From contig NC_049979.1 of the NCBI RefSeq assembly GCF_000003815.2, positions 19,711,201 through 19,775,200 on the forward strand: a stretch of DNA of 64,000 nucleotides, written 5' to 3'. The notes below the pieces were generated by a model. That model saw only the letters and a list, made by a program, of their open reading frames with translations, searched no databases and was not told the origin of the DNA. Position numbers and translations under genes: made by a program. Positions within the stretch are counted from its first letter, which is position 1; each line of letters begins with the position of its first letter. Positions 983-45,573 of the stretch are shown here, one piece after another. Source of the DNA: Branchiostoma floridae. Lineage: Eukaryota > Chordata > Leptocardii > Amphioxiformes > Branchiostomatidae.

Positions 983-3627
983 GATGCACCATGGCCAGTG
1001 ATCATACTCTTGGCGTACTGTTTCGGTGGCGTCATCAACCACTCCATGATGCTGGCTATCCACGAAATTGCACACAACCTGGCCTTCGGCCACTCTCGTC
1101 CCCTCCACAACCGTATCCTGGGCATTGTGGGAAACGTGATCATTGCCGTGCCCATGTCCATCTCCTTTAAGAAGTATCATCTGGAGCATCACAAGTACCA
1201 GGTAAGATTCATACTTTTCCTTCATTCTGAGGGAGAAATGCTGTTTTATCTTAGATTTTCTGTCTTTTAAGATCAGACACTGAAAGTAGGCACCCCACAC
1301 TGCTGTAATTTAGATGTTGAAAAATTAGTTTGTTGTTGAACAAGCCAGTGATTCCTTTTTCATACCAGGCTGCAGGCATCTCCCTAGAAATACAGAATAA
1401 GGTGGTGCTGTAGGACAGAAAAGGGTGAAACTAGGCAAAAAACAAGTAGATTTAAATGACTGAAAGCAAAATCTGAAACTTGACATAACACAGTAGTGTT
1501 CTACTTGAACTTCTAGATTAGGACGCTGGGGAAAATGCTGTTTGTACTTTTAGTGTTTTGGACTATGATTTATAATGCAGGCATATAACAGAAAATGTTC
1601 TGATACCTTTCATGGATTCCCAGGGAAATGAAGAGATGGACATGGATCTGCCATCCAAGATGGAGGGAATTCTGTTCCACACCACCTTCACCAAGTGCAT
1701 CTGGCTCTTCCTCCAGCCCTTCTTCTATGCCCTCCGTCCACTCTTCCTGCGGCCCAAGCCTGTCACAGGGCTGGAAATCATCAACACCACCGTCCAGATC
1801 ACCTTTGATGTGGCTATTTTGTACTTCTTTGGAGGCAAAGTGAGTGCACTTTTTTTTTTCACAAAATGTGGGATTTCCCTTTGTACCTAACAGATAGGAG
1901 GCAAGAACAAGGAGATACACATGTGCCATGATACAAGTGATAATAGCAATGTTAATGTTAATCATTGAAATTTTTGCTCCTGTTTTAATGATATTAGCAA
2001 TTCTTTATAACTAGAATAACTGGTACTCCGTTGTATTTAAGCCATAGCCTTGTCTAGTAGAAAAAGGTTTATGTATGACCTTGTTTAAAAATTGCTTGAA
2101 CAATGTACTTCCATCTAACCTATTCATGCTTTTTCAATCCGTATATTTAGAATAAACATCTCTGTGATATGGCAATGTAGTTATAATCTTTATTATCCAC
2201 ACTACAGTCTCTAGCGTACCTGATGATTGGCAGCCTGCTCGCTATGGGAATCCATCCCGTGGCGGGACACTTCATCTCGGAACACTACATGTTCAAGAAA
2301 GGCTATGAGACCTATTCCTACTACGGTCCACTGAACGCGATCACCTTCAACGTTGGTTACCACAACGAGCACCATGACTTCCCCAATATTCCTGGGTGCA
2401 GACTCCCCAAGGTGAGGTCTCAAAGTTGAAGATGCACTAGCAATACAATTACAAGGAACAATAAAAGATCAAGTGTTGTCATCTGAACATGTATTGTATG
2501 TATCATATATGCACATCTTGCCTGTGAAAGAGCTATATAAGCGTCATTTGTAACTCAAGTAGGCCAAGATTATTTGATTGTATAGATGACATCCTCTGGG
2601 AACACCAGAACTGATGTAAGCTTGCAAATAAAGATGTTTGGCTATAAACAGAAGTTGCCTTCATGATGAAGTCTAAATGGTCAGGAAGGTTGGAAAAAAT
2701 GACCAACCACGCAGTATGGAATACCATTCATTTTTGTTCTTCTTTAACCATGGCATTGCTTCACATTAGTAAATGTTTTACAATATATCTTTTTTTAGAT
2801 CTACGGCATGTGTTTGCTCATTTTCAGCTGCTTTGTGTGATTCACAGCATGGTTGAACACTTTATTTTGAAAGGGACAAATATTGATGCAGGCGCAGATG
2901 TCATCCTTATAATCAAATCAAGATGGCCATAGAAAATCAACTGTATCTGTATGTACTGTATGTTGTAATACTACAGTCAACAGTCAAGGCAGTTTTTGTA
3001 TACATGCAGTAGACTCGCAGAAACTGGAAAAGCAGGGCTCGAAATTTATTTTTGGGATTAGGTGCACTGGTGCACCCAGCTTAAAAATTGGGTGCACCAA
3101 AAAATTTTTGGGTGCACCACTTGAATTTGAAGTAAAATGTAAAAAAAAAACTAATTTTAGTAATAACAAAACTTAGTTACAAGCTATCAAATTTTTAAAC
3201 AAGTAACATGACAGACATTTTTATTGTCTCTCTAACACTTAGATGTCAAGAATATGATGTATACTAGTATACTTGAATAAACCTAAGAAAATATTTGGGT
3301 GCACACTGAAAAAAATTGGGTGCACAGTTCCAATTTTGGATGCACCTGGGTGCACATGCACCCAGTATTTCGAGCCCTGAAAAGTGATGCATTATATAAG
3401 GAAGGAAGGATGTAATAATATATACTTTTCTTACATATCTCCAGGTCCGTGAGATTGCTCCTGAGTTTTATGAGAACCTTCCCTGCCACACGTCTTGGAG
3501 CCGCGTCCTGTACGACTTCGTTACCGACCCGGACATCGGACCATACGCTCGCGTCAAGCGCAGGAGTAAGCCCATCCCCATCAACCCTGCCAACCTAGAT
3601 GTAGATGGGGACACCAAGGCAGAGTGA
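983..3627 (+). CDS. degs1: Sphingolipid delta(4)-desaturase, degs1-like, 3' four exons (5' partial)
   Basis: Exons 983-1201, 1624-1839, 2208-2411 and 3445-3627, with GT-AG introns all at phase 0, encode the last 272 residues or so and end in TGA. The product should introduce the delta-4 double bond into dihydroceramide at the ER membrane. All three histidine boxes of the fatty-acid desaturase family are visible: HEIAH (first exon), HLEHH (end of the first exon) and HNEHH (third exon, in [14 protein letters not shown]). Hydrophobic membrane segments flank them. The C-terminus [14 protein letters not shown]...LYDFVTD resembles vertebrate DEGS1. The two N-terminal exons, present in the paralogue at 12125-18070, are absent from 1-982 and presumably lie upstream. 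Exon lengths 219, 216 and 204 are identical in both paralogues, so they are tandem duplicates. The family call is firm; DEGS1 versus DEGS2 is inferred from a few positions. Confidence 0.93.
3033..3379. mobile_element. MITE-like element with CAGGGCTCGAAAT ends, in degs1 last intron
   Basis: It starts CAGGGCTCGAAAT and ends with the exact inverse ATTTCGAGCCCTG. Inside, the motif GGGTGCAC and its inverse recur many times, so the element can fold on itself. Short AAAG-like flanks may be the target duplication. It is a non-autonomous element in the intron between 2411 and 3445. Confidence 0.75.
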
Positions 3628-5576
3628 AACATTACATGTAGACACAAGTACACTTCACTATCAATGATGTATCTACACACACTTATGTACCTTTGTCAGA
3701 TTACAGAAAGAATTGCAGAAATACTAGAGACATCCCATTTGTCCTGTGCTTTAGGGTTGCCATCATCAGAACATATGACGTATTTCATATTTAAAGAGCT
3801 TAAAAGTATTAATCTTAACAGTATTCGAGAGCTAGAAAATCTTCTGGTTAAGTAAGAATGGTCATGTATCAAATTGCCCTTGGAGCTGGTGAACAAAGTT
3901 TGCCTACTATTTTGCTTTGTTGGCAATTGTTGGAAGTAGACTGGGGCTTGATAGCCAGTAAATACTAAGTGCCTCTCATTGCACAAACTTCTCAGAGTGG
4001 CCTAAAGGTTTGAACAAAAGAAGTTGATGCTTAGATTCTTAAGGTCTATACAAAGTTGTACTTGAAAAGGTTGAGCATGGTACATTCATGCCATTAGTAC
4101 AGTCCCTGTAATTCTATGGGAGGGGAGTCAAATTCCCCCTTAGAGTTGTTGGACCTGACGTTGATCGAATTGTGGTGCATAAGCACAGCCATGTGATGAT
4201 TATAGTTTTGTACCGTGGCAGGAAGAAACAACAGAATGGAGTCGTGTATAATTGCCTGTGTAATTAATTGTTATTACATTTCTCATTTACAGAAAATTCT
4301 GTATCTGAGACAGGCCATAATTCCTTGTTTATCATTTTAAGGCCTTCAACAAGGTTTTTTATTGTATCATGAGATCAGTGCAATTGCAATGATATCTTAC
4401 ATCATTTGTTGTTTTAACTGCATATGCATAGAGATACATTCATGTCAAAAAGGATGGGATTGATATGAGATGTTGGATTTAAAATCATTGGAGTGTTGTA
4501 CTTCATTGGGGGATTTCCAAAATAATACATGCTCAGAAGTTGAAATGATGTGTGAAATACGTGCCAAGCAAGGAACACTATATCACTTTGTATTCAGACT
4601 TATGTAGCATTAATCAGCATGTTGCACTCTACAAAAATAATGCTATAAAATATCTAGCATTAAAAGTGATATGATCCATAAAACCCTGCAGATATCTTTA
4701 TTTTCAACATGGAGGGTTTTGAGATGGAATATGCAGGTTAGAAAAATGATCATGCTAACATATAGTAATTCTGAAGAAATGTTGATATTATGATGTTGAA
4801 GACACAATGATCACGCATGGAACGGTTTTGTACAAAATTGTCATAGAATTTCCAACAAGATAAGGTTTCACAAGCCTGAGCCTCTAAAGCTACGTCTTAT
4901 TTTTTACCAACAAGTAAAATATTATTTATTTTGAAATACCAGTATTGTATTTTAAAGTATCTCATGTTTTCTTGTCCACAAAGTTGGGTTCTTCCCTTTG
5001 CAAGAAGATATATGTATATGGCATATGGCTATCCAAACATGTATGTATTTATGTATGTTGAATGTAAGAGTATTTCCTCCAAAATGTTGTTAACAGCTTT
5101 ACTTATGTACACATGTGTAAGCTGTGCATTGTGTTTGGATGCCAATGCTTTTAGCCATGACAGTTGTAGAGAGAGAGAGCTATTTCAATACACAATTTAA
5201 TACACATCCAACTGAAAATTCAAGCATTTTGGAATATAACATTCTTCACTTGTGCTTCAAGTTCAAACATTGTTAGATGGTCTGGTTACTTTTGAAATTC
5301 AAAGTCATTTGAGAAAGAGCAAAGCTGATGTATATTTGTAATGAATTCAATTTTGTTTCTTTTTAATTTTACACTGAGTCATTTCTCTGAGGCATTGCCA
5401 GAAAAATTGTCATATAACTGCGTTTTGCACATATCCATGGTTTGTCTTTTGCTTTACGATAAACAGAGGGAACGTAGACATGTTATATTTGAGAAGAAAA
5501 CGTGTTACTGGGTTATGAAACTGAGTGAAGGTTCATTTCTGTGTTGTTGAATTAAGGGTTAATGACCCGCCCCGAG
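3628..5576 (+). other. degs1 3'UTR and downstream AT-rich DNA
   Basis: AT-rich sequence with no credible exon. It probably holds the 3'UTR of the degs1-like gene; no canonical poly(A) signal stands out close to the stop. Confidence 0.5.
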
Positions 5577-5676
5577 NNNNNNNNNNNNNNNNNNNNNNNN
5601 NNNNNNNNNNNNNNNNNNNNNNNNNNNNNNNNNNNNNNNNNNNNNNNNNNNNNNNNNNNNNNNNNNNNNNNNNNNN
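5577..5676. other. Assembly gap (100 N)
   Basis: Exactly 100 N, a conventional filler for a gap of unknown size. Sequence on the two sides need not be adjacent in the genome. Confidence 0.99.
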
Positions 5677-6249
5677 GCCGGAATCTTTGTGTTACGGCGT
5701 CATAACCAACGTGGAACGGGACTTTTGATTGGTCCGCGCCACCTGGCTATATGACAATAGTAGAGCTTGTACATTGTAGTGATAAAGTCGACTGATAGGA
5801 GGCGCTTTAGTATAGAAGCGTTACTGCATGACTGGAGATGAGTTCTGATGGCAAATTACTGGTCGAAAAGATATAAAGCAATATCTGTTAGGTACTGTAA
5901 TTTTGACTCAAACTACCACATGATTTCTTAGACGGACTACCGATACTCAGTAAATATATAGTACATCAGAGCGCTTTAGCTTAGCTTTGTAACTTTTTTG
6001 GTGGGGGATTGTAGATATACGATGGGGGTAATTAACGTTACACAGTTCTAGAGATTCACATCAAAGTTAGTCTGCTACAGTCGTGTTTGCCACTAACATG
6101 AATATGCTACTAGTATGTTGGCTTGTTTGTCAGACGTCTAAAGGTAATGGTGAGGCCACGGCAATTGTCGGGTAAGGCACGACTCAGGCCTACGTCACAT
6201 TTCCAAACCGAGGCCTGGCCGGGCTAGCCTGGCTACCATCCGATTTCTA

Positions 6250-6319
6250 CCGGGGCTCCTTACTCTCGCTACCCTAAAATATTAGAACTTTTTAGGGTAG
6301 CGAGTGTAAGGAGCCCCGG
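6250..6319. repeat. Foldback hairpin
   Basis: CCGGGGCTCCTTACTCTCG...ACCCTAAA is followed after a short AT-rich loop by its inverse, giving a stem of about 29 bp with one or two mismatches. It is likely a solo foldback transposon end pair. Confidence 0.75.
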
Positions 6320-6844
6320 AACAAAAAGTATGGTATAAAAGACACCAAACTACACAAGACGTAAAGAAAATAGTAATTATATGTGACGTCACACCGTGCG
6401 TAGCAAACTTTAGGGCTACACAAGATTCAGCCGCTACACAGTTTCAGTCACGTCATACTAATGTATATTATTTCTGAGAAGACTCCTGTATCAAAGAGCT
6501 TATACTAAATATCGCGTCTGTGTTACATTTAGCCACTGGGATATGTTGACACTTGGATGGTAGGACGACATAGATAAAATGTACTGCTGGTGATATTCGT
6601 GTGAAGTTGTGCACATGTGATATAGGGACAATATTGTAAACGTAAATAGCAGACAACAGCTGAACTATAAAAACTTATATTACCGCAGTACTCGGCCCTA
6701 CCAGCTGATTGTAAGAATGGCAATTCCGTGTACTAGTAAGTAATACTTGGTGTTGCTTCGGTACATTGTAACCTTACTTAACCCCAGTGACCTTATCTCA
6801 CCCCAGATAATTAGATGTTGCCACAAACAACAAGGGCATGTGGC

Positions 6845-6950
6845 TATTGATAGGATGATCCTGTCAATAAAGGCAAGATTTGCGCGATTGACGGGATCAT
6901 TCTGTCAATAACAGAATTTTTGCCACTGTTGACAGGGTGATCCTGTCATT
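6845..6950. repeat. Three tandem palindromes of the ATTGACAGGATGATCCTGTCAAT type
   Basis: Palindromic units lie at about 6845-6867, 6886-6909 and 6928-6950, spaced about 41 bp. Each reads nearly the same on both strands around GGATCATCC. Confidence 0.65.
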
Positions 6951-7109
6951 AATACAAAAAACTGTTATTTTAGGATAATGTACATTCCCTAATACCTTCC
7001 CTCCATTTAATGATAGTGATACCGAGTGAGCACCTTCGTAAAATTGCCGCAACATGAAGACGTTCCATATAACTGAGAGGGTGTTTCTTGCCTTTTGTTC
7101 TAACAATTT

Positions 7110-7740
7110 GGAAATCTTTGTAACAATCTAACTGTGATAAGTAACTGTTTAGAACTATTTACAACATCTATATGACGTTCTAAATGTTTCTATAGTATTC
7201 AAACATGTTAGAAACATTTCTAACATCAAATACATTATTTCTGTTAGTTTCTAAACTGTTCCAACATAGATGCATCATTTGTGATCACATGTTCGAACAT
7301 GGAAACAATATGATGAAACTGGGTCAGTGGGCTGGGAAGAGGGCAATTCGCACATCCCTGCCAAGTGCAGGAAATTATGTCTGTCTGCCACCTTCTCACA
7401 AAAGACTCACCAGTGTATACTAAAGAAAGTCTTAAAATACAAGAGCCAAGCAAAGGACCAAGCTTAGCAGCTTTGTTTATGGGGTCAATAAAAGTTTTAT
7501 GGAGGGAAAAAAATGACACAAAATGTTGGAACATGTTGGAACAATAACAAAAACACATAGATGTTTGAAAATTGTTCTAAATAAAGAGATAATGATATCA
7601 TTACTTTCCCAAATGTTCCAACAAATATGAAAAGGTTCAAACATGTTCAAACTTTTATTTTGAAATGTTTGAACAATTTTGAACTTTAGTGACTGAAATG
7701 TTCTTTTACTCAAATTAGTTCAAACTTATTACAAATATTA
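7110..7740. repeat. Degenerate GTTCnAACATGTT-rich tract
   Basis: Variants of GTTCAAACATGTTC, GGAACATGTTGGAAC and GTTAGAACATTT recur on both strands through about 600 bp. It is low-complexity, with no coding potential. Confidence 0.5.
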
Positions 7741-8950
7741 TTTCAAAACCATCTCGGTGACTTGGAATTGACTCTAGAATTTACATAAATATGATAACTT
7801 GTCGCAAAACAAGTTGTCAATTCAATTATATTTCAGCCATACCGCAGGTATGAGATGAAATATCTTACTTTTTCTTGAAGTATGGTTGAAATATGTTGTA
7901 TTTGCTCGCAAATGTTGCCTACTTTGTTATAAAGACGCTATTTATGCTGGTACGTGGTGTACATTTTGGGTAGTAATCTCCAAGTGACACTTGCATCCTT
8001 TCTTTATGCCCTCAACACAGAACGAGTAATTTGGGGTATTGTTATATTTCGTTTTGACGAAATGACATAGAGAACAGGCATTATTTTTCAAGAACAACAG
8101 ACATGTATACTTTCAATTCCCTCAGCAATATACCACTTAAAACACGCGTCACAACATACAGTAACGTTATTTATATTCAACACATTGGATGTGTACGTAC
8201 GGTCACAATACATTTGGGGGATCAAAAGAAAACATCCTGTCAGTAGGTTACAAATTTTAACGTTACGCATGAGTGAAGTAGTTGCTCGACCGGATTTCTC
8301 ATGTATGCAGTACATACCTGTAGGCACCATTATAATCCTGTTGTGAGCTAGGGAGCCGCGTTACCACAAGCTCCAAGCTGTTCTAGAACACAAAATCGAA
8401 TTTGAGGCAACAAGTCCCATTCTGCATAAAATTCAGTTGTGTCAACCTGCCTTGCCCTTGGTTACAACCTAGGACAGAACGTGAAACGTGAATGTCAACA
8501 CTCGGGTAAGTTTGGATTTCCACACTATTTGGTTGACATTTGGTTGACCTGTCTGGTATGGTTGGTTTGCGCATAGTGTCAACACGTTTGGGGTGGCACG
8601 AGACCTTTCCGTGCAATAAAGTGGCTCTTTCCGACCAAACAGCCTTGAAGTGTTGACAGGAACGATTGATTGTTTGATTCGTACTTCCAGAGCATATTGG
8701 AGGGCCCTCAGGCTGTGGCCTGCCTTGGCTAATGTGGTGGCTAACATTAGCCTAAATGAATTACATGTAAATCTGTACATACTATATTGCAGACATGGGG
8801 GTCAAACATCCCACAGTCAGTTCCATGGTTCCACTTGCAAAGGGCCTTTGCAATTAAGTCATTGAGGGATGTTTTTTTGCGGTTTAAAAACGTTGTTTAT
8901 GTTGTTATTTAAACCGTCACCTGGAGCCAAATTTCTGAAAGCATTGTTGA

Positions 8951-9917
8951 GGGCCCCAATGGGGGGTCCCGACAACGCTCTACGCTAAATTCTGGTGACC
9001 GGCTACGTATTACGCTGAATTCAGGGAGCCTCTCTACGCTCTACGCTAAATTCGAAAGCTTCCCCACACATTATACAGAACTCATCACCGAGCGACTGAG
9101 CGTTTGTGTCAAAGATGGTATTTATGATAAATAGAAGTGACAAAAGTTGAGTTAAAAGTATCAATGGTAACCGGCGGCAGACGCGGCGGCAGCAAATTTC
9201 TAACGGGGGTCTGGCGGGGGGGGGGGGGCAATATTGCTGACCGAATTTATCATCTTGAGCGCCGAAGGCGCGACAATCCTAGGGGGTCGCGGGGCATGCT
9301 CCCCGGGAAAATTTTGAAATCTTGACCCTTTGAAACGTTATTTCCTGCATTTGAGGGGCAACTTTTTCTCCGAGCAGACTAGGCAATACTTAATGCCGCC
9401 AAAACAGTTACTCAAATAAAAATAAGCAACTGGATATGATTTTCCTGGAGTAACTGTTTTTGGCATACTTCTCGTATCTTATTTAATACCTGGATGTCTA
9501 ACCTTCATGGACGAATCTATAATGCAATTTCTATTGAAAATACAGTTTAAGTTTTTGAGAGTGACGCCCCCACCATATTTTCACCATGTCGCCGTGAGCG
9601 CAGATGGTGCGGGGCGTCGCAAAGGAGGTCCACGGAAATTTTGAAATTTCGACCCTATGAAACGCAATTTCCTGCATTTTGAAGGGACTTAGGGCAATAG
9701 TTAGGGCAGGTTTGATTCCGCTACACGCACATTTCATCCATTACGTTTTTCGGTAAATTCCGGGGAGCTACAACGCATTACGTAGAATTAAAAGAGTCAA
9801 TTACGCTCTACGCAAAATGCACTGATTACGCTCTACGTTGAATTAAGCGATCCGTCTACGCTCTACGTAAAATTAAAACGGCCGATTACGCTCTACGCAA
9901 AAGGGCATTGGGGCCCC
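8951..9917. mobile_element. Non-autonomous element with GGGCCCCAATG ends and TACGCTCTACG subrepeats
   Basis: The left end is GGGCCCCAATG and the right end is its inverse, CATTGGGGCCC. Both sub-terminal regions carry several copies of CTCTACG(C/T) followed by AAATT. Near-matching CATTGTT flanks could be target duplications. The interior (9170-9340 and 9590-9680) resembles the interior at 39790-39905 in inverse orientation. Confidence 0.6.
9392..9466. repeat. Short MITE, AGTTACTC...GAGTAACT...TTGGCAT family (copy 1)
   Basis: ATGCCGCCAAAACAGTTACTC at the left mirrors GAGTAACTGTTTTTGGCAT at the right. The same ends occur at 32754-32917, and the right end also at 31178. It is nested inside the 8951-9917 element. 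Confidence 0.6.
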
Positions 9918-11453
9918 CATTGTTCATACTGGAACAGTATTTGTCTTCATGCTCTAATTGATTTTTTTTTAAACCTCGAGTATGCCTTATCTATATGTCA
10001 ACAAGACGAAATACAGGTGGTTCAAAGACTTAGTGTTACATTTCCGGTATCACGTGTGTAATGTTGTTTTTGTTGTTGTTCTTGGGAGTGGGCGTTACGA
10101 AAACGCCCTGTCCCCGGAATTGTAACACTCTGTTTGATGTCACTTGTGTCACAAATCGTTGCCCAGTTCTTTGAATTTCGATAGCCAGAATGTTTGAGCG
10201 TGAAGTATTTGTCAAGGTAAATGGCCGTTTCCGAATGAAAGATTAGAACAAGGACACCTGTATCTCTAAACCACACAGGTCACGGACCTTAACGCTTGTC
10301 GCATGCGTCAGGAATGTTCGCAGAGTTAAGGCGCCTCTGGGTAGTTTCCAGGTTTATCTCAGGTCAGCGACAATGTCCACATGCACAAACGTTTATAACG
10401 TTTAGTAACCTCGAAGAGTGGCTTGCTAAACCGACATTGCTGTTTTATCCACAACATGAAATGTAAAAGGCTCACGTATCCAAACGTATTGAATTAACGA
10501 TTAGGATCATTAATTGATCAATATCGGCAAACAGTCTGACGTTAAGGACATATTTGTGGCTTACGTGGTGGGCAAGGTGGCATAGTTTTTGCAAAGGTCA
10601 TTTGCTCTATCTTCAGAAAATGTCGAGAATGTCAAACAGTCGTAGATCAAGATAACTAAGATTTTGAGCCATTGTTGATGATCGGAAGGTTTTCATTGCC
10701 TAAAGGCATACTTAGGTAGCGATTATACTTTTCCGGACAGGCTGTTGACAAAACATGTTCCCATAGATTATCATTATCATACTTTTGCTCTCTATGGACC
10801 TAGTGCGGCGCATCAACGATAAATGTGTCCACAATACATGTCTGGAAAACGACACTTCAAATTAAAAACACAAATGCTCACCAACAATAACGTCGGACGA
10901 TTTGGGTTAATAATCGTTATTTGTCACGCAATTACAATGTCACCCCAAGGTTACAAATGATATTTTAAATGACACCTTTCCCCTTTATGTATCATTTGTG
11001 TTTCGAAGATGATATATCTTCTGACACGAGAAAATTTCGACATTATTATAAGCCATTTGGTAAATACATTTTTTTCTGTTATCGTGAGAAAAAAACTTAT
11101 CTTTTTTCGTCACATTCTTCGCCAATTAACGGATTCAAAAATATAGGTGATTACACGCGAGGTCATTTCAACCGATTGATTTAAAGTTCAACGTGACTGA
11201 ATTTCTGTTGCGTCGTATTCAAACTTTAACAGTTAACCGCTCAACACGAAGTAGGTCACACTACATAGATACAAAACGCTTACAATCATTGAATAATTCT
11301 TCAAGTTATTTTTAAAAGAAATTGTACCATTAAAGGACGTATGGGTAAATTTGTTTCTACGTTAACTCAATATGTGCAAATATGTATTTCTTATGCTATC
11401 GAGCAAAGTAAATATTTAAAGAATCTAGTTCCACACCCAAACCCTGGACTTAC

Positions 11454-11721
11454 CTTCTGTTGGAAGAGCGCTTCCGCACACACTGCAGTTAGGTAAGACA
11501 GGAGAGTTTGTCTTTCCAGATGAACCATTGTTACAGTGACAACGAAAACAACTAGTCTGTTCGTAGCTTTGGTTTCTGAAGGGACCGAATAATTTGCCAG
11601 GGGAGTCTGTCGGCCACAGGGCCTCTAGCAAATCAGTCAGTCTATTTTTCCAATTTTCACTTTTTTCGAGCAACCCAATGAGTCTTGTTGAGGTCAGAAA
11701 TTGACATGATGTTAAACGTCA
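11454..11721 (-). CDS. Possible zinc-ribbon-like exon of an unknown minus-strand gene
   Basis: An open frame on the minus strand ends in a strong splice donor (AAG/GTAAGT) at 11454. The reading STRLIGLLEKSENWKNRL... then CFRCHC and, 17 residues on, NCSVCGSALP looks protein-like, with two Cys-x-x-Cys pairs as in a zinc ribbon. There is no in-frame ATG, so it would be an internal exon or have an upstream start; a TGA bounds the frame near 11722. I could not find a convincing partner exon below 11.4 kb. It lies 0.4 kb upstream of, and divergent from, the degs2-like start. It may be part of a real gene, a decayed fragment or chance. Confidence 0.35.
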
Positions 11722-12124
11722 GTAGGAAATGATTTTCCAGAATTCAAAGAATCTAAAATAAGGAACTTACAAAAAGGAGATATTTTCTCGCACACGCTCA
11801 CATTCCCGCTCAAAATACAGCCCAACCAATCGTCGGGTCATGTTTCATCTGTGTTCTTTGTTTCTTGTCAGAGAACATTCTTACTCACCTTCCAGAAAGA
11901 TCCACCTGTGCCATTGGTCCGACTTTTGCGCCATAAACATATCACGTGTTTACGTTCCCTAGCGACAAGTCACCGCCTGAAATAGACCCGCGCAGGTAAC
12001 CGCAGGACAGGTAAACACCTGGGGATTATTCATCGCCTTTATGCGTGACCGTCTTCCGTTCGTATAGGCACAGTACCCGCCCAAGCCGCAAGACGTACAC
12101 ACACCCCTCCACCAACACCCAAAC

Positions 12125-15100
12125 ATGGGAGGACAAGTCTCTCGGACCGACTTTGAGTGGGTTTATACGGACGAGCCCCACGCTACAAGGAGAAAGGAGA
12201 TCATGGGTAAGTTTGTAATTGGTGAATTGGGGAATTGTAGAGGCGGGACACCAGTTATTTGTACCCCGTGTATCAAGGGAGTCCGTTACGCTTTGAATCA
12301 TGGCGGGTGGGTATACTAAAGGACACATGATGCGTGTAGTATGTTTTATGGAACTCTATTGGATCATTAGCACATATCTATACGTGCGCGTTTGGATCAT
12401 AACTCTGATGAGATAGTTGAATCCTGCATTGAAGAATTGCCCTGCATTAGGCATGGCATGGAGACTTAGATAAACAATAAGGACACACCCCAATGATGCA
12501 GCACTCTCCAAAACACGTTCTTCGTGTTTGTCTACAGAAGGTCAGCGGTCTCTAAACGGTTGTGTATTCTGAAGTATAAACGTGATAAATCAATGCGTGT
12601 CCGTCAATTTTCGGTTGAAAGGCTTTAAAAATGAAGCAATATGGAAAGAATCAATTGTTTTCCCTGTCGCGTTATAATGCCAGACCCACCCCTATCCTTT
12701 TGTTAAACAGTCTTCTTCATTTGCTGCATTATAAAGCGCGCCCTTGATTATTGTAGTAAAAGGGTGTTGTCACGCAATATAATCTACAAGGTCAGTTTAA
12801 CCAAGGAGCCTGTAAACCGGTCTGTCATCATCGTCTTAAGGTTGTTTACTCTTATCACGTGGTCTGCCCTTTTAGAAAAAGCTTTCTTTTGGTAAATGTT
12901 AACAAATCGATTACACAAGCCCCGCGCCTATTAATAGGAATTGTTTGTTTTAGGGTAAAATATTAAACGGTGATATAGTATGTACTTTCACTGGCCTGAA
13001 GGAAGAGGTATAAGTGATACGCGTCAGGTGGGAAGAAATCAGTTGCCATAAAACAATATTGACTCACTTTTATGTGCCAAAGCTGACGTCACGTCGACCT
13101 AGTGGTCAGTGTGTTGTTTAGTCCTGTTGTATGAGCGGTTCTTTAGTGACGTTTATTTTACTTAATATCAATGAAATCGAATCAGACCTCTTTGGAACGA
13201 ACATATATGTATAGAGAGTGAGAGATAATTTTGTGGAGCAGTAGCTCTAAGTCGGCAGTGACTGTAACTTGACCGACCGTCAGCCCAAGAAAGAAAAGTT
13301 TCTTCTGTGCCGTTCACCTTTGCTTTTGTTTGACTATGCGGTGTCACGGGTCGTTTGAATTAACCAGTTCCAACCTGTGAAGACATCGAAAGAGCCACAT
13401 GTTGTACTTGTTGTACATGTTGAAGTTAACAATAGTTAGTCATAGGCCCGTTCTCTTCGGTACCGGCAAAGCCCAGTCCTGTTCACATTCGTGGAACGTA
13501 CGGTGTTTCTGTGTAGTTGGATCAGTGAGGCTAACCGCAGTATACAATGATCTATGGCCAAATGTTCTATTAGCCTCTACCAGGCTCCGTGGATCGGTAG
13601 AATCATTATCCTCAGTCCACGAAGCCTGGTAGAGGCTAATGTTCTATCACAAAACATCTGAATTTCATAATTTGTTCCCCAAGTCTAAGACCCGGCCCGT
13701 CGTGGACTCGTCGCATGACGTACAAATGTGACAGGAACCTTAAGCTTGCTGACTATACTGCAAGCAAGTGATTCACAAGACAAATTACCATGCTGACGAT
13801 GTCATTGCCGACATCTTTATGGGAAGTATTGATAAGTAAGGCTCCATCATTCCTGGTATGGGTGGAGCAACCTGATCATTACCCAACGGTCTTAAGCAGC
13901 TTGTGGTGTGCTGTGCCTTAAGCCGATTTACCTGATTTCTAAGCAGAGGTTCGGCTCTGACGTGTTTTTAGGTGTCGTGATTTCTATTCTGCACTACCGG
14001 TCGTTTGATTTACCCGCGATTTTGAAGTTTTTAACGGACTATTTACGAACAGTTACGAAAGCACCGGAGGGGGGGGGGGTGTTACACAACGTGTGTCCGA
14101 CAGGTGTGATTGTATGGCTGTCACATGAGACAATGCGATGTGTGTCAGAGGAGCGGCTCTTTTTTTAACATGCCGACATCTGAACCCCCCGGCTGACTGA
14201 ATAAACTAGGGCGGCGCTAAAAGTGCAATCTCATTCACTGTGATATAATGAGGGTGGAGAGAGATAGGTGCATATCGTATAGTTTTAGATTTACAATAAA
14301 GATGAGACATTCAGGTACATAGTTTTAATGAAGTCTGCAACAGAGTTTCATATAGCATCCGCCATATATTTCCTCCTTTTCCTACGTGCAGCTTCTTTTA
14401 CAAGTCCATAGCTACATACAGATGGAGAAAATTCGTACTATATCACACCAAACTACCAATGTCACTTCGCTTGCTAAACTACATTCAGAGTCTTCTATTT
14501 CATTCTATGAAGAGTGCACACATTTGTGTTGTCTGTGTACTGTTATGCTTTTTCGTTCTGTTTGATTTGGGGCTTTTAATTTTCAAGAATCAAGATTGTA
14601 TTTTAGTCTCTGTGTGTACATGTGTGTGAGTTGGATGGGAGTGGGGGTGTGGGTGGAGCGCACAGAAGGAGGATGAAAGACACTATGAGACACTTTGACA
14701 ATAGGAAATTATAACTGTGCCTACCGTAGATTCACAAGTTAGTTTCATTCTACTTTGTTTAATCAATGATAGTCTCTGCTAAACACACACGATTATCATG
14801 GATTAGAAAATCAATCCGTCTATGTTTACCCTTGTTAATCCTGTATTGTTTCAGCTAAGTATCCTCAGGTGAAGAAGTTGATGGGACACGATCCGAACCT
14901 GAAATACTGGGTGTTCACAATGGTCGCCGTGCAGCTGACGATAGCCTACATGTTGAAGGTAATTCTGAAAGTGTTAAGCACCATATTCTGAATCAGAACA
15001 TTCAGCTACAGTACTTTTAAACACAAGCCGACCCACACAAATTTTTGACTGTACAGCACCAGACTTTGACAAGAGATGAAGCACAATGTTACAGATAGCA

Positions 15101-18070
15101 ATGTACATCCGGGCCCTTCAATCATCACTGAATAGAGGCGGAGGACGCTACAAGCTGTCTGCAACGTTTGATGACGTCATAGTATACCATCCTACCAATA
15201 GTTGAAAAATTCTTATTGTCGAGTCTCCAAGCTACGACTGTTTTGACGTACTCGTTTTAGGTGTTTGTATCGTCTTTTATGCGTTTTTCTATTTTGGACT
15301 GTTTTCTTTATGACTTGATGACTTCCAGCCAAACGTTTCGAAAGCGTATCGAATGTCATTTCTTGACAAAGACTCACGACGTCACGAAATTTGGCTTGTA
15401 TTGGCACGGCCGTATATTTGACACATCTCATCACCTTTAAGTGCCTAAGCATGTTACCTCGAAACGAAAATGCCGTTTGTTTTGATGTTCGCAAAATCAT
15501 ACGTCCAATTAAACTCTCTGCAGCGTTACTACAGCCCACGTTTTGAGGTGGAATAATTACCATTATTACTTGCAAAACAGGCGGACAACAACGATTTAGA
15601 TTAAGATGAATTGGGTCAAATTAGGTCACATTACCAGGTGTTCAGGTGATCTTGTTGATAGGAAACATCCCGGAGAACACACACACACGCAGACACACAC
15701 ATGCATAACGTTACACACACACACACAAACACACACAAACGCACACACAGAAGCGCGCGCACATACACACGCCCACGCAAACACGCACACAATTTGAAGA
15801 CAGTAATTGTGTCTTGCTCTGAAACCATATCTACAAACGAAAGATCAAGTCTTGTTGTTTTATATGTCTGCTGTAGGATGCTTCCTGGCCACTGATTCTA
15901 TTGACTGCCTACGTCATTGGCGGGACCATTAATCATGTCATGCTTATCGCTTGGCACGAAATTTGCCACAACCTCGCCTTCGGGCATGCTCGGCCTCGTG
16001 CGAACAAGGCCCTCGGCATCTTCGGAAACGTCATCATCGGTTTCCCGGCATCCATCTCGTTCAAGAAGTACCATCTAGAGCATCACAAGTTTCAGGTAAA
16101 TTGTTACATAACGTTATACACCTTATACACAAGCAGACCATGATATTTAGAACAGTGCCAACAGGAATGAACATCGAAAACTTGCGTGAAACAAAACATA
16201 TACAAATGCACCTGTTACTCAGAGAAATCGTGGAATAATTTTCCTTCTCTCAATTACTTTGACTTCACAGGCCCAGGACGGTTTTGACCCTGACCTTCCG
16301 ACTGTGTTTGAAGGTCAATTCTTCTGTAACTCGTTTGCGAAGGCATTGTGGGTTTTCCTACTGCCCGCGTTCTACTCGCTCCGTCCCTTGGTGGTGAGGC
16401 CAAAACCCATCACAGACTACGAGGTCATTAACCTCGTGCTGGTGGGCATTGCTGACGTTCTCATTGTGTACTTCATGAGCTACAAGGTAGGGAGCGCTCA
16501 TACACCTCATGCTTTGACTCCTTTTTCTGATAGATTGAATGCTGTTTGTGATGGACAATTCAAGAAATAAACTAACTTATTTATATTTTATTATCACGAG
16601 AACCAACCTATTTTGAAGCCGCTCTTAAACATCGAACACAACCGTCAAAATAAAATGTAACGTTACATATAGGTTTTTTTTATGTATATGATTATTTTAA
16701 CACATGACCGACTACTCAAAATCACTGCAATCATTGTACTGTGGAATTTTATGTACATAGCTTTGCAGCAAAGGACCACGAAGAATAGGCTAATTATAAA
16801 TCATTCAGTATGTTCAAACGTGCACTACTACTATCTCATTGGCTGTACTGCTAATTATGTTAGGGAGTTGGGATCGTTTCGATGATGTTAACCTTATCGT
16901 AAGTAGGATTTGGTCATATAGTATCATACTTTATATTTCAGTCTCTACTCTACCTGGCCATCGGTACCCTCCTAGGCTTGGGGCTCCATCCCATGGCTTC
17001 GCATTTTATCGCCGAGCACTACATGTTCATCAAGGGCCAGGAGACGTACTCGTACTACGGACCAATGAACGCCTTTACTTTTAACCTGGGGTACCACATG
17101 GAGCACCACGACTTCCCCAACATTCCGGGATGTAACCTACCCAAGGTACATTCAACTTACCTTTTCCAACAACTGTTCATTTGTTGAAAACGTTATTGGG
17201 AACAAGTATTGAAACATTGGATTACTTTTAAGCCGAATATGCAAAGAACTCTTCCACATGTCAATCAGAATATCAAACACGCTTCCATCATTGTCATCAA
17301 GTCTTCCTTTCTGTCAAATTCTGAATTATCATTTAGGCCATTACATAGAGTCATTTTAGTAGTGGTTGGAAGAAAGACTCGGATGTGTTACTTTAGTATG
17401 ATATCGGCAAAAGTTTAATGCCCGAATAGTGTTTTTGTCAACATTTAACAAGTAGCGTCACGTCTTTACAGAAGCGCACCTTTGCAACTCCTCAGAGGAA
17501 GGACCTACATGTATATACATAACGTCCTTGCTTAAACGGAGGAATGTCAGAAAAGAAAGGTAGCGAGGGACATAGATCTATGAAACAAACAAAAAATATC
17601 AAACAGGCCAGGTTGTCACATCTGCTTGGAGACTTTTTCGAACGTCACCGCAAATATACAAAAGTAACGGTCTCCTCTGTCAGCACTGGAAAACCAGTGC
17701 TGAAGTGGTCGTCAGCGCTGGAAGTCCAGTGCTGAGGCAGCTTCAGCACTCGAAGCCCTCCTGTCACCTTTCCAACGAAAAGACAAAATTTGCGTCAATA
17801 TAAAAGTACACAAAAGAGGTTCCAATACACGCTCCCTTTCCACGCATCATGTCGACCAAGTTAACACTAGTCCTCTGTTTCCATGCATCACAGTTAAAGG
17901 AGATCGCTAAGGAGTACTACGAGCCTCTGCCGTCGCACTCGTCATGGCCGAAAGTCATCTGGGACTTCATCATGGACCCGGCCATCGGGCCCTACTGCCG
18001 CATGAAGCGCCGCAGTAACAGGGCAAGGGACAACGGCAGCTGCGACGACGACCCCGACAAAGACATGTAG
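12125..18070 (+). CDS. degs2: Sphingolipid delta(4)-desaturase/C4-hydroxylase family, degs2-like, complete
   Basis: Six exons: 12125-12206, 14855-14958, 15877-16095, 16271-16486, 16942-17145 and 17894-18070 (TAG). They give 333 aa, close to the 323 aa of vertebrate DEGS proteins. Intron 1 is phase 1 and the rest are phase 0. The start ATG has A at -3 and G at +4. The N-terminus MGGQVS fits the N-myristoylation pattern (Gly2, Ser6) known for DEGS1, followed by the family signature [11 protein letters not shown]. Histidine boxes: H89-EIC-H93, H128-LE-HH132 and H259-ME-HH263. The third box has Met where DEGS1 has Asn and human DEGS2 has Val (from memory). Together with W in VIWDF, this leans toward DEGS2, which also hydroxylates C4. 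It lies 8.5 kb downstream of the degs1-like gene on the same strand. A MITE begins 19 bp after the stop. Substrate preference cannot be read from sequence. Confidence 0.93.
12207..14854 (+). other. degs2-like intron 1
   Basis: A 2.65 kb phase-1 intron (donor GTAAGT, acceptor TTTCAG). It contains the 68-bp foldback element at 13571-13638 and a lone AAGCAGAGGTTCGGCTC transposon end at 13941. No other exon was seen. Confidence 0.8.
13571..13638. mobile_element. 68-bp foldback MITE with 9-bp target duplication
   Basis: Ends TAGCCTCTACCAGGCT / AGCCTGGTAGAGGCTA are inverted repeats extending about 24 bp each. It is flanked by exact 9-bp direct repeats ATGTTCTAT at 13562-13570 and 13639-13647. Confidence 0.88.
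15676..15792. repeat. (CA)n-rich microsatellite
   Basis: An imperfect CA/ACAC tract with GC interruptions in degs2-like intron 2, 85 bp before exon 3. Confidence 0.9.
17681..17734. repeat. Twin hairpins in degs2-like intron 5
   Basis: CAGCACTGG-aaaa-CCAGTGCTG (17681-17702) is followed 10 bp later by CAGCGCTGG-aagt-CCAGTGCTG (17713-17734). Each has a 9-bp stem and a 4-nt loop. The paired stems share sequence. Confidence 0.7.
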
Positions 18071-18088
18071 ACCGTTTGCATCTTTTAT

Positions 18089-18387
18089 TAACCTGGAATC
18101 CAGTCTCCTCGTGACACCGCCTACCGTAGTTAGTTTAGGCTCTCCACGGGGCCAGTGTAGCTCTCAGCCGCCGTGTAATTTACACCCGGTAGGATTTCAC
18201 GCAGTTAGACTTAATTTGCCGAGTTAATTGCCGGCTAATTATCCCACTGGCACTGGGCTAAGTCTAACCCCTGAAAATCCTTCCAGGCGCGGCCGATTCC
18301 CCCGGCGGCTGAGAGCTGCACTGGCCCCGTACAAAACCTGCGCTAACTACGGTAGGCCGAGCCACAATTAGACTGGATTCCAGGTTA
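18089..18387. mobile_element. 299-bp MITE with 9-bp target duplication, in degs2-like 3'UTR
   Basis: TAACCTGGAATCCAGTC and its inverse form the ends, and more inverted matches continue inside (CTACCGTAGTTAG, GGGGCCAGTG, CTCTCAGCCGCC). Exact 9-bp direct repeats ATCTTTTAT flank it (18080-18088 and 18388-18396). It begins 19 bp after the degs2-like stop codon. Confidence 0.92.
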
Positions 18388-30400: not shown

Positions 30401-31307
30401 TGGTAGACATCCGGGTTGTAGTCTATGTAGAACAGTCTCCCATTTATAAATCCTATATTGCATGAACTGAAGTGACATGAAATTGAATCCTAAAGAAAGT
30501 GACACGAATAGAAGCTGAATGTAACTTTAGATTTACAGACAGTTTCTGATCAGGATCTCTAATGGTAGAACAGTGATTCTGCCAGATTGCAGTCTCTACT
30601 CTGACATATATATCACCTGTGAAGTGAAAGTTGATTGTACATGAAGACGGCAATTTACATGTAAGAGAGGGAAGTTGATGACTGGTGACGTGTGGAATTA
30701 CAATTTGCTATTCCACATTGATGGAATAGCAAATCTCAAGTTTATTTTCAATTTCCTGTATCTGGTATATATACACATATATATATAGAGAGAAATGGCA
30801 TGTGACAATACTTACTTTTACAGTATCAAAGGGATGTCCCACCAGTACACCAGCAGCACCTGTGTACAAAGAAAGGGAGATGATTTACATGTATCAAAGG
30901 CTAGTTCTTTTGATCTCAAGAAAGTATTGATAAAACATTTACATAGTTGTATCTCAAATTTTGTGAGCTGTGTTGCTACATGTAACATACACTACAGTCT
31001 ACAACATTATTACATGCCAAATTGTCATACTATACATGTTTGTACTTTAATTTTCTATACATATTCTAACCAGTAAAAACTGACATCAGTGTCACTGATG
31101 AAGGATAGTGGATTCTATCCGAAACGTCTGACCGTTTCAAAACCATATCCAGTTGCTTGAGTAACTACTTTTTGGCATAACCAGTAAAAAGTTGTACTTA
31201 TCAAATACAATGAAATGTCACCACTTGATACAAAATTAATTCTTCATGAGTAAACTATACGCATAATTAGCTATGTTCAGTCGAAAGTGACTTTGAAAGC
31301 TGCATGA

Positions 31308-31361
<54 letters not shown>

Positions 31362-41109: not shown

Positions 41110-42369
41110 TCCCGGCACTTTCACGGATCAGTTTTCCAGCCGCGGAAATTCCAGTAGCTTCAAAGTATCAGCTTCTCGTTACGATCACTTTAGGGGTGAC
41201 CTACATGGACCACATCTGTCAAAATGTCTCAGAGAGGGGATCGAGAAGAACGCGCCTTCAGGATGTGTTCCTTTCACGTATGGCTTCCCTTTTCACGCTG
41301 TTACAAAAGATCTAGTACACGTGGAAACATCCGGAAATGTATATAAGGCTGGTCTCTTTACTCGATGACGAATAGGAATTTTCCTACGTATCAGTTTACA
41401 AAGAAAAAAGGCGCCCCGGGTCAGTAGACTGTTTTTTGTTGCGTTGCCCTTCGAGGGCGGTACGTGTCACGCGCTGCTGTGACGCGGCTCACACGCGTTT
41501 GATCCCCGAAGAATTCACCGCGTTTGTACGATGCTCCAAGCGCTGCGGGTAACGGTGTAGATCGTCGGACATCGGACTCAGTCCTCACGTGGGTTACATG
41601 TTAGCCATACTTGTGACGTTTGCTGAGATCAAACAATGGGGACAAACAGAGACGGGAGGTCCCTTGATCGCCGGCGCGCCTTCGGGCCGCACGAGATTCC
41701 AAATGTGTCAGCGTGGAGACTGACCTCTGACCCTACATATCCCATCAGCCACTACGAAAACCCGGAAGTTCAAAGGTTGCAATAAATTTCGTAAATACGA
41801 GGGCGGCACAATGTTTAATAATTGCCACTCTTTCACAGCATGTAGACAGTATATTGCAATTAAGTGGTAAAAAACTTGTATTTGTCATCAACATAAAAAT
41901 TGTTTCATTTATATTGGGACAAAAAATATCAATTTACCTTCAAAGAATGTATGGAGAAGTCTAAGGTTACACTTTGTGTTTGTATTCTGACGCACATGTG
42001 TCGTAGCCTCGTGCGGTCGAGGTCCTGCGAGGGCCAGAGGAACGTAATTTGTGTCGCACAGTAATAACCTTTTGAGTACACGGGTCAAACATATGTAAGA
42101 CCACTGATAACATCCTACGGTTTTCTCCCAAGATGTTTTTCCTCCCGAGGACTGATATCACCACACACGTCTAGGAAACCGGTCGGGTGTGTGGTTGCGT
42201 TTAGCGTTTCTAGGCGGACCGGCTTTTGATCAAGAAAACTGTTAACGTTTTAAGTTGACATATTTAATTGCACAACGGAGCACAGACAACAGTGTCAGGC
42301 TTTTACGAACATTTGCCTCAAGTTCTTCAAGAGATCTGCAGCTGTGGGACATCAACTGTCATTTACAAA
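41110..42369. promoter_or_regulatory. Shared divergent promoter region of the two carrier genes
   Basis: 1.26 kb separates the start codons of slc25a29 (-) and the SLC25A47/48-like gene (+). The middle, about 41400-41720, is visibly richer in CG dinucleotides than its surroundings, as in a CpG-type bidirectional promoter. A TATATAA lies at about 41340. Transcription starts cannot be placed from sequence. Confidence 0.5.
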
Positions 42370-45300
42370 ATGGGATTTCGTGTGGATGACTTCATAGCAG
42401 GATGGATTGGTGGTAGGTACTTTAGAATTTTGATTCAAATTATTTTTAGTGTAAAAACTGAGACAAACATCAGGCATTGCTATTTTGTATTCTGTCACAT
42501 CAAGGACGTTATATCAACGTGCTTGGTCACATTAAGTAACCATCCTTTAAAAATCGTAGCTGTCACCCATGTATCATTTCAAGTTGTAAGAACAAGATTG
42601 AGACAACTGATTACCTGTTGGTTACAGTGTAAGGTGTGCTGTAGTCTGAACTTTGTAGATAACTGACTTATGCATTGATTGATGCACCAGGATCATTGCT
42701 TGTAACTGGTAGAACAAAGGGCATTATAATATTCTAACAGGTTGTCAGTATGTCAGATGACTGTATATGAAATAGTTCAGCACAATGCATGATGCATGCA
42801 TATTCTGATGCATGCATATTCCTAGTCTCTACCAGACCGACTACGCTGGCTATTATAGGGAGAACGATTTGCCAGGTGAGTTTTGCTACCAGAGGAGATG
42901 GTCGGCCGCACAGCCGAGGGGAAACATGAACCTAAGTCTGGACTGACTTCCCTGGGCAATTTCCCAATTTTTTTGCCGAATTCTAGGATCCCCACATCCC
43001 CGTAGGAAGGTCCGGTGGAGACTAGCATATTCCCAGGGTGCAATACTTTTGTATCAATGTGTACTGATGCTGCAACATTTTGTTTTGATTGCAACAGCCA
43101 ATAGGAGCCCAAACAATGATCCGATAAATCAGAATTGTTTGGTATGATCTACCGGTTATCAAAATTGCAGTCACCAGGTCTTTACCATTAGATTACTAGA
43201 AACAAGTCCACTGATTTTTTTTTACTGTTTGCCAATACCTGAGTATAAAAGGGATCATAATCAAGTTCTATCTATTTGATAAACAAAATTGTCAATCATT
43301 GTCAGAAACTTTTAAAACACAAACAAGATTTATGACACACCCCTGACACACCCCTTGAATTCTTTAATCTGATTGGCTGCTCACACCATTTACACAATTG
43401 GCTGATGCTGCTGATCAAATATTCACAGATTAATGTTTTGTATGTCAGTGTTGAATCATCAGGATTTTTTAACAGCATGGGAGCATCTTCGTGCAGGAAA
43501 GCCATGTGGTAAGCAATACAGGTCTGAGCATTGTAGGGGGTCAGGGGGAGTCCTCCTTTTGAAAATCATTTAACCCTCTGAAACACTATTAGTATTTCCT
43601 GCATTCAGAGGGTAACATTCAGGCAACATTTTTTTTTACCTTTGTTACAAAACAACAGAAGTGTCCCCATGAACTGGTTGAAACATAACGTATCCAGTGT
43701 AGGGGATTCAAATCACAGGTGTCCTCTGTAGGGGATCCAAATCACAGGTGTCCCCTATGCTGAAAAGGCAGAGGTTCCAAAGGACTCTTGATTGCAAAAA
43801 AAAAAACTATTAAAAGGACAGCAATTGAATCAGAAAGGAACTCATGAGTTATGAAGTAGTGAAAACTGCATGCACTGGGAGTAAGGAAAAATCAACCAAT
43901 GATGTAAATCACATTTTTCTTTAAAAATTTTCAGGTGCAGCAGGTTGTTTTGTGGGGTATCCCCTGGATACTATCAAGGTATGGTTCCATCTGATTCTCT
44001 TCTCTTTTTGCATGTTGTTCAGTGCCAATTTGTGTTTGTTTGAAGATGAGTCAATATTGCTCTGTATCACAGCAAAATTAGGATATTTCTTGAGATGGAT
44101 GTCAGAATCCCTGTGTGTTGTCTAGGTGCGGTTACAAACCAACAAGAGTGGTGGTGCAGTCCACATTTTAACCAGCCTGGTGAAGAAAGAAGGGGTAGGT
44201 ATTCAACAGGATTCTATCTTCCATTCCAATTCTGTATGTTATCTTACTGTACTTCAGTCCATGAAAGAATACATGTATACAAATGCCTAGATGAAAGTCT
44301 TAAGGACAAGTCTAATGCATAGATGTGGTTTTCATTGCTCAGTACTCTAGTATTATGAGTTTAAGTTAGTGCCAGTTTTGTATGTCAAAGCTACTTTCAA
44401 ATCACAGCACAAATGTTGACAAAGCTTCTCTCTGCACATTTCAGCCACTTGCCCTATTCAAGGGAATGAGTTTTCCACTGGCTACCATTGCGTTTCCTAT
44501 GTCTGTGGCCTTTGGAGCAAACAGCAACTCCCTCAGGAAGATTCAAGAGTGGAAGTACGGAACCACGGACCACAAGGCTAGCTACACAGATCAGGCTGCG
44601 GCGGCATGTTTTGCAGGCTTTGTGCAGGCCTTCGTAGCCTGCCCTATCGAATTGGTAAAGATTAGACTCCAATCCCAGACTCATCGGATCGGTGTAAAAG
44701 GTAATTTTTATTGCCTTAATGTTTATGAATGTAATCTGACTGATGGCAAAACAACTTTCTTTTCCTTTCTTTCCCTTCCCATTCCTTTTGCAAGAGCTGT
44801 TTGCATGGCAAGTTGTAAACTTAAATATGTTTTCGATGTATGTTGTCATGTTGATCGTTCAGTGATTAGGAACCCTTTTTTTTGTTTAAACCAGAAGGTC
44901 AAGCTTATTTTGTATGCTCCTAACTAGGGTTGTATTCCTTACAGTGTTGAAGCTGCCCAGGAGCCAGACTACTCTGCATTACAAAAATGAAAATTGGATT
45001 CCACGCTGATGTACATACTCTGTCAATCATGTTGTTCACTTGATGTTCTGACTTTGTGAATCTTACCACACAGGTGTAGGTAGTAATGGCATCATCCAAG
45101 GAGCGCATCCCAATATGGTGGCTGCTTACCGCGGCCCTTTTGATTGCATCGGCTGCATAATCCGACAGGATGGTTTCCTGGGAATCTACCGCGGTCTTTC
45201 CAGTCTGATTCTACGGGACGTTCCCGGGTACGCCTTCTATTTTATCTTCTATGCCATGACTTGCGACCTCCTCAGACCCAGTAACGGTGAGCTGGGTCCT

Positions 45301-45573
45301 GTACAGTTCATGTTGGCAGGGAGTGTCGCCGGTCTGGCCACATGGGCCTCCTGCAGTCCCATGGATGTCATAAAGAGTCGACTTCAAGCCGACGGGGTTC
45401 ACCAGAAGAAATACAAGGGCATCATTGACTGTACGGTACGCAGTTGGAGGGAGGGGGGACCGAAGGTACTGTTCCGGGGGCTGGGGGTCAACTTGCTCCG
45501 TTCTATCCCTGTCAATGCTACAACATTCCTGGTGTATGAGTATAGCATGAAACTGTTGTCAGGTAAATTGTAA
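42370..45573 (+). CDS. Mitochondrial carrier, SLC25A47/SLC25A48-like
   Basis: Five exons: 42370-42412, 43935-43978, 44126-44194, 44445-44691 and 45074-45573 (TAA), encoding 300 aa. Carrier signatures are PLDTIK (24-29), PIELVK (119-124) and PMDVIK (230-235). AGWIGG, KGMSFPLA and LRDVPGY resemble SLC25A48, whereas VGYPLDT and the ending KVLFRGL..PVN resemble SLC25A47. It may therefore represent the ancestor of both, or belong to either. Human SLC25A48 has been linked to choline transport; the SLC25A47 substrate is less settled, so no substrate is assigned. The start ATG (A at -3, G at +4) is the first usable one in the frame. The first three introns match SLC25A29 in place and phase; the fourth (phase 1, after HRI) is extra. 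The exon-4 donor GTGTAA is weaker than usual but keeps frame. A poly(A) signal lies at 46073. Confidence 0.92.
42823..43024. mobile_element. 202-bp MITE with 9-bp target duplication, in SLC25A47/48-like intron 1
   Basis: TAGTCTCTACCAGACC at the left, inverse of GGTCCGGTGGAGACTA at the right. Exact 9-bp repeats GCATATTCC flank it (42814-42822, 43025-43033). Confidence 0.88.
43695..43760. repeat. Minisatellite, GTAGGGGATyCAAATCACAG unit
   Basis: Two full units and part of a third, about 33 bp each, with GTGTCC(T/C)CT between them. Confidence 0.7.

Follow-up and report, generated by a model that had tools for sequence, protein, structure and literature searches.

Why do a sphingolipid desaturase gene and two mitochondrial carrier genes lie side by side in amphioxus, in an arrangement that recalls human 14q32.2? 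We addressed this question for a stretch of 64,000 nucleotides of the Branchiostoma floridae genome (NC_049979.1:19711201-19775200, contig C1, 35.3 Mb long; referred to as the window), using for genome searches the assembly of 431 contigs and 513,431,437 bases. A preliminary description had placed in the window a pair of desaturase genes, SLC25A29 on the reverse strand and an SLC25A47/48-like gene on the forward strand, and had likened the order to that of human 14q32.2, where the two carriers are divergent. Pfam assignments and exon models bear out these genes and strands, and the start codons of the carriers indeed diverge across 1,260 bp. Gene tree and shared introns suggest that the two carriers are sister paralogues, and we consider it likely that the pair goes back to an SLC25A29-like gene which was duplicated in inverted tandem in an ancestor and whose copies stayed together. 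Among the matches listed in searches of the open literature there was no paper on amphioxus microsynteny of DEGS, SLC25A29 and SLC25A45/47/48 genes.

The desaturase and carrier genes of the block

The block comprises the following features, given by their positions in the window.

983-1201, 1624-1839, 2208-2411, 3445-3627, forward strand: exons 3 to 6 of DEGS-A, of sphingolipid delta-4 desaturase type (Pfam, exon model)
5577-5676: gap of 100 N between DEGS-A and DEGS-B
12125-12206, 14855-14958, 15877-16095, 16271-16486, 16942-17145, 17894-18070, forward strand: DEGS-B, complete, 333 amino acids (Pfam, exon model)
41109-41076, 30859-30816, 25450-25367, 25213-24470, reverse strand: SLC25A29 orthologue, 301 amino acids, four coding exons (Pfam, model, trees)
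41110-42369, no strand assigned: candidate bidirectional promoter region, 1,260 bp (CpG richness)
42370-42412, 43935-43978, 44126-44194, 44445-44700, 45074-45573, forward strand: SLC25A45/47/48-type carrier (the second carrier), 303 amino acids, five coding exons (Pfam, model, trees)

Exon models were built by hand from splice sites, and single exons as well as the spliced proteins were put to Pfam; in the final models every intron inside the window starts with GT and ends with AG. Both spliced carrier models matched Mito_carr (PF00153) in three stretches (E = 4.2e-68 for SLC25A29 and 2.8e-61 for the second carrier). Exon modelling shifted the start of SLC25A29 to 41109; its coding exons extend over 16.6 kb, from 41109 to 24470, the first being 34 bases long, and because this first exon occupies 41109-41076 the carriers stand head-to-head. 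A PDB search gave 9 matches, none of them named as a carrier of SLC25A29 type. The window holds 78 stop-to-stop frames of at least 90 amino acids; 19 of them were put to Pfam in two batches of 9 and 10, the second of which returned no family, and the other 59 were judged by eye.

The two DEGS genes stand in tandem (983-18070). Exons 1 and 2 of DEGS-A fall outside the window, on its left, at distances of approximately 7 and 3 kb (flank piece L018), and a run of 1,547 N directly abuts the window's left edge. Spliced exons 3 to 6 of DEGS-A matched FA_desaturase (E = 9.4e-25), with Lipid_DES found in exon 1, and the spliced DEGS-B model matched FA_desaturase (E = 2.6e-27) together with full-length Lipid_DES (E = 5.8e-23). 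Both genes thus display the features of the DEGS family, i.e. the N-terminal Lipid_DES domain, FA_desaturase and three histidine boxes (HEIAH/HLEHH/HNEHH and HEICH/HLEHH/HMEHH); a PDB search with one DEGS exon gave no match. The two proteins are only 60.9% identical over aligned residues, and on this ground we rejected the reading as two haplotypes of one gene. Because of the gap at 5577-5676, DEGS-A is joined to the rest of the block across a scaffold gap, and its position relative to the rest, like that of the second KLHL gene described below, depends on scaffolding. For Branchiostoma belcheri, Table 1 of PMC10240347 contains no DEGS, yet the legend of its Fig. 6 names amphioxus degs1.

Kinship of the two carriers

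The three introns of SLC25A29 correspond to the first three introns of the second carrier (alignment columns 20, 34 and 66; phases 1, 0 and 0). In a tree of nine sequences the second carrier joined human SLC25A45, SLC25A47 and SLC25A48 with support of 96.2 in the SH-like approximate likelihood ratio test (SH-aLRT) and 94 in the ultrafast bootstrap (UFB), and this group was sister (98.4/99) to an SLC25A29 clade made up of the human sequence and both amphioxus copies (97.5/99; 98.6/100 for the window gene with human SLC25A29 in an earlier tree). Forcing the second carrier into the SLC25A29 clade was rejected by the approximately unbiased (AU, p = 0.011) and Kishino-Hasegawa (KH, p = 0.029) tests, not by the Shimodaira-Hasegawa (SH) test (p = 0.142). 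Amphioxus and human SLC25A29 are 60.6% identical, and the two window carriers share 40.1% identity with each other. The tree thus suggests that the second carrier is a co-orthologue of SLC25A45, 47 and 48, and tree and shared introns together suggest that the two carriers are sister paralogues.

Signature residues of the subfamilies were compared as well. According to PMC6769469, SLC25A29 is characterized by RE at contact point II, whereas contact point I carries no negatively charged residue; the window SLC25A29 has R-E at the contact point II columns, and G at the column of S65 of SLC25A45, which we took as contact point I. SLC25A45/47/48 form a distinct clade next to SLC25A29 (PMC10526428), and it is with this clade that the second carrier groups (96.2/94). 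PMC6769469 gives R[DE] as its signature at contact point II, to which PMC12594208 adds S65, R173 and R268 of SLC25A45. The second carrier has R-D at contact point II, R at the R268 column and T at the S65 column. In the human sequences used, this last column holds S in SLC25A45 and SLC25A48 and T in SLC25A47. We predict that the window SLC25A29 would carry arginine and lysine, and the second carrier choline or trimethyl-lysine.

A duplication leading from SLC25A29 to SLC25A45/47/48 has been proposed from exon similarity (PMC13385207, whose species list, in the part accessible, includes no amphioxus). In this model the three genes derive mainly from a carrier named 'ALC' there, with which they share their first three intron positions, and the H3-H4 segment is additionally proposed to have come from the carnitine carrier. 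The amphioxus pair resembles the model in its three shared intron positions and in a second carrier that would stem from an SLC25A29-type gene; it differs in that physical adjacency is added, and in that the H3-H4 segment is not visible.

When the second carrier was used as query against the genome, 16 matches were listed, i.e. three of its own exons, the window SLC25A29 (42%), two on contig C3 (41% and 59%) and ten others at 26-40% identity; as the search scores best candidates, it can be said that no second SLC25A45/47/48-type gene was among these 16. Contig C3 carries an SLC25A29-like frame that has no introns and shares 70.8% identity with the window protein across 288 residues (piece L037:6837-7802, reverse strand), and a second, truncated copy (L037:3065-3418, reverse strand), in a stretch of 9,000 bases of which 3,438 are N. 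In the tree, the C3 copy was sister to the window SLC25A29 (98.5/99). Because it is intronless and sister to a window gene that keeps its introns, we read the SLC25A29-like copies on C3 as apparent retrocopies of the window gene, and on the same grounds, together with its identity of 70.8%, the C3 copy was rejected as the true SLC25A29 orthologue.

The vertebrate block and the origin of the pair

To compare the block with its vertebrate counterpart, we take C14orf68 to be the old name of SLC25A47. In platypus, ultracontig378 carries EML1, DEGS2, YY1, SLC25A29, C14orf68 and WARS in this order, all six being genes of human 14q32.2, chicken 5 and opossum 1 (PMC2042987, Table 2 and accompanying text). 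The platypus gene-model numbers follow on from YY1 to WARS (Nov5723, 5724, 5726, 5727), that of DEGS2 does not, and the authors consider assembly errors likely in this ultracontig for three genes mapping elsewhere. Human and mouse neighbours, where PMC3985205 and PMC9992842 name them, agree with the order DEGS2-YY1-SLC25A29-SLC25A47-WARS, and these three sources together support the earlier statement that the human counterparts are close neighbours. As in the mammalian block, DEGS, SLC25A29 and an SLC25A45/47/48-type carrier are neighbours in amphioxus, and the carriers are divergent in both, provided that the human strands are reverse for DEGS2, forward for YY1, reverse for SLC25A29 and forward for SLC25A47, with approximately 17 kb between the carriers. 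In contrast to this block, amphioxus has two DEGS genes, one carrier for three human ones, and 1.26 kb between start codons as against approximately 17 kb between the human genes.

Other parts of the preliminary description need revision. The whole block was said to have kept one orientation; in amphioxus, however, DEGS on the forward strand converges on SLC25A29, whereas human DEGS2 shares the strand of SLC25A29 if the strands are as given above. The genes were also said to be unrelated, which holds for DEGS and fails for the carriers, which are sister paralogues by three intron positions and phases, the tree and the model of PMC13385207. Finally, the second carrier had been likened to SLC25A47 in particular, and our tree makes it a predicted co-orthologue of SLC25A45, 47 and 48 alike.

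We therefore favour the following history of the carriers, whose adjacency would be due to tandem duplication, with the sister relationship and the shared introns as its traces. An SLC25A29-like ancestor would have been duplicated in inverted tandem before the split of amphioxus and vertebrates. One daughter would have stayed SLC25A29, a basic amino-acid carrier, and the other would have become the ancestor of SLC25A45/47/48, which would carry methylated amino compounds or those with quaternary ammonium. Amphioxus keeps the presumed daughters head-to-head, 1.26 kb apart between start codons and with DEGS adjoining; in vertebrates, whole-genome duplication would have multiplied the region, with SLC25A29 and SLC25A47 staying beside DEGS2 at 14q32.2. 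Human SLC25A45, SLC25A48 and DEGS1 are, we assume, located away from 14q32.2. The proximity of the genes would thus reflect inherited linkage and probably an ancestral common promoter region, later separated in vertebrates. In this history we infer the inversion at duplication, the amphioxus substrates, the shared promoter activity and the descent of each human locus.

Several points weigh against this history. At the 5% level the AU test also keeps the second carrier with SLC25A47 alone (0.48), with SLC25A48 alone (0.38), with SLC25A45 alone (0.066) or outside SLC25A29 plus the trio (0.094), and all five alternative placements, that with SLC25A29 included (0.142), withstand the SH test. The vertebrate trio SLC25A45+47+48 is itself weakly supported (78.8/59) in a tree of few taxa. 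For human, the tree uses working versions of the sequences that are verified in part: the residues S65, R173, R268 and R285 of SLC25A45 named in PMC12594208 match (4/4), as do residues 97-311 of SLC25A48 (215/311) with the cDNA printed in PMC11953726, while the remaining four human sequences, SLC25A29 among them, are unverified. Overall identity hardly discriminates, as the second carrier is 40.5-43.8% identical to the human trio and 39.9-40.1% to the two SLC25A29s, and it is therefore tree and introns that carry the argument. By a crude identity test, no carnitine-carrier-like H3-H4 segment is visible in the second carrier (30.4% identity with SLC25A20, 34.8% with the human and 32.7% with the window SLC25A29, and 39.2% with SLC25A15); this segment belongs to a proposed history and is not a strict criterion of membership. 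SLC25A29 has the second, intronless copy on C3, and the carrier and DEGS gene models are predictions from sequence. Unlike the mammalian block, moreover, the wider neighbourhood (264 kb, i.e. the window plus 100 kb on each side, with several N gaps) gave no match to zinc-finger YY1 or WARS1 probes, and in the stretch searched, N gaps included, YY1 was not found between DEGS and SLC25A29 as in the human block.

Ancient microsynteny and a possible ancestral bidirectional pair are of a known kind; new is the connection with the way in which a carrier subfamily may have arisen. If the proposed duplication is correct, the locus provides physical evidence for the proposed gene-family origin of SLC25A45/47/48 from SLC25A29, SLC25A45 and SLC25A47 are predicted to be genome-duplication copies of one gene, and amphioxus offers a single-gene system for asking if choline, trimethyl-lysine or both were transported by the ancestral protein. 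There would also be reason not to use 'SLC25A47' as a name for the amphioxus gene at 42370-45573. A bolder form of the proposal has the amphioxus pair as the birth site of SLC25A45/47/48, with orientation and promoter proximity kept for more than 0.5 billion years and one promoter feeding both an importer of methylated or quaternary-ammonium compounds and a lysine/arginine importer; this we advance only tentatively, as a possibility that is more doubtful than the duplication itself.

Conserved linkage and common regulation as alternatives

Could the block be explained by conserved linkage on an ancestral chordate chromosome, its closeness being a matter of chance retention, with no special duplication of carriers? 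This explanation draws on the 264-kb neighbourhood, where NUP133, a probable AIDA and FAM89 resemble a broader conserved linkage. NUP133 was identified by a PDB match (1xks, E = 2.8e-13), the probable AIDA by Aida_N (E = 2.3e-05; 25.2 bits, the cut-off being 25) and PDB entry 1ug7 (E = 6.2e-05), a mouse protein that we take to be AIDA under an old name, and FAM89 by two exons matching a FAM89 probe (E = 1.5e-13 and 1.3e-07). No Pfam family was found for the FAM89 and NUP133 pieces, the names of which rest on the probe and the PDB match, respectively.

L012:2045-2440, L013:988-1383, L014:2240-2632 and L021:7111-7491: exons of NUP133, FAM89 and probable AIDA, approximately 61 kb or less from the ends of the block

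We assume that human 1q41-42 carries NUP133, AIDA, FAM89A and DEGS1, and human 11q13.1 FAM89B and SLC25A45; no printed map positions for 1q42/11q13 were found in the open literature. Because NUP133, FAM89 and AIDA point also to these regions, the neighbourhood may correspond to several human regions, 14q32.2 being one of them, in their state before the vertebrate genome duplications. PMC7269912 assigns pure CLGA ancestry to a single arm of chicken 3 and a single arm of chicken 5, a placement that would fit if C1 is that linkage group. The same source reports that gene order within linkage groups is largely scrambled, and for this reason a chance adjacency of DEGS and SLC25A29 in both lineages appears unlikely, although the genes to be compared were picked post hoc; of the whole block, it is this shared neighbourhood of DEGS and SLC25A29 that represents conserved linkage in the strict sense. 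For the carriers, linkage alone leaves the shared introns and the sister relationship unexplained, and it has the scrambled order elsewhere against it, so that we regard it as an unlikely account of the pair, albeit the strongest of the alternatives.

Less likely again is that DEGS, SLC25A29 and the SLC25A45/47/48-type gene are co-regulated in cis and that breaking the block is selected against. The intergenic region between the carriers speaks for it, being 1.26 kb long and CpG-rich, with an observed/expected CpG ratio of 1.12 at a GC content of 0.46, where 251 bins of 500 bp have a mean ratio of 0.52 (sd 0.35); among 1,255 windows of the same size the region ranks at the 96th percentile. CpG richness by itself is no promoter mark, since other bins of the window reach equal or higher ratios, and the motifs found between the carriers (TATATAAG at 41340, and CACGTG) come from a scan without control and prove nothing. 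Bidirectional promoters are common in amphioxus, being reported for 25% (3,950/15,884) of neighbouring genes in Branchiostoma lanceolatum, and stem vertebrates lost 54.5% of the 372 that are putatively ancestral (PMC6292497); a common promoter for the carrier pair is plausible on these grounds. The pair resembles such ancestral bidirectional pairs in its 5' to 5' arrangement across a short CpG-rich gap, and differs in that bidirectional promoters are defined by transcription start sites within approximately 1 kb, whereas 1,260 bp is the distance between start codons. None of the papers on bidirectional promoters among the matches listed dealt with SLC25A29.

Against regulation of the whole block, DEGS meets SLC25A29 tail to tail and therefore cannot share the carrier promoter. 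In addition, a liver knock-out of Slc25a47 in mice left the expression of Slc25a29, Yy1 and Degs2 unaltered, and Slc25a47 is liver-specific and HNF4A-dependent (PMC9992842). The suggestion that shared regulation holds the block together thus finds no support in mouse; the knock-out is weak evidence, because the deletion may have left the shared intergenic stretch in place. It is very improbable that the carriers were duplicated in amphioxus only and resemble 14q32 by convergence, as lineage-specific-looking duplicates in this genome (the KLHL pair, the SLC25A29 copies on C3) would allow, since the carriers are only 40.1% identical and the AU (0.011) and KH (0.029) tests, if not the SH test (0.142), reject the second carrier as an SLC25A29.

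The wider neighbourhood further contains a protein with a UvrD helicase domain, TRANK1-like by eye, and lineage-type frames of LRR-Roc, P450, EcKL, TPR, PGRP-like amidase and Bcl-2; BROX, CNIH4 and EVL, the last probed with its EVH1 domain, gave no match in it. Within the window, two single-exon genes of KLHL type (BTB-BACK-Kelch) form an inverted pair that flanks a gap of 100 N and is 90% identical at the DNA level.

50123-51820, reverse strand: first KLHL-type gene
56028-56127: gap of 100 N
58333-60144, forward strand: second KLHL-type gene

The ratio of non-synonymous to synonymous substitution rates between the two was 0.12 in the BTB domain (strongly constrained), 0.54 in BACK and 0.70 in linker plus Kelch (least constrained). 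At 61625-61867, a unit of 109 bp is repeated in tandem (2.2 copies).

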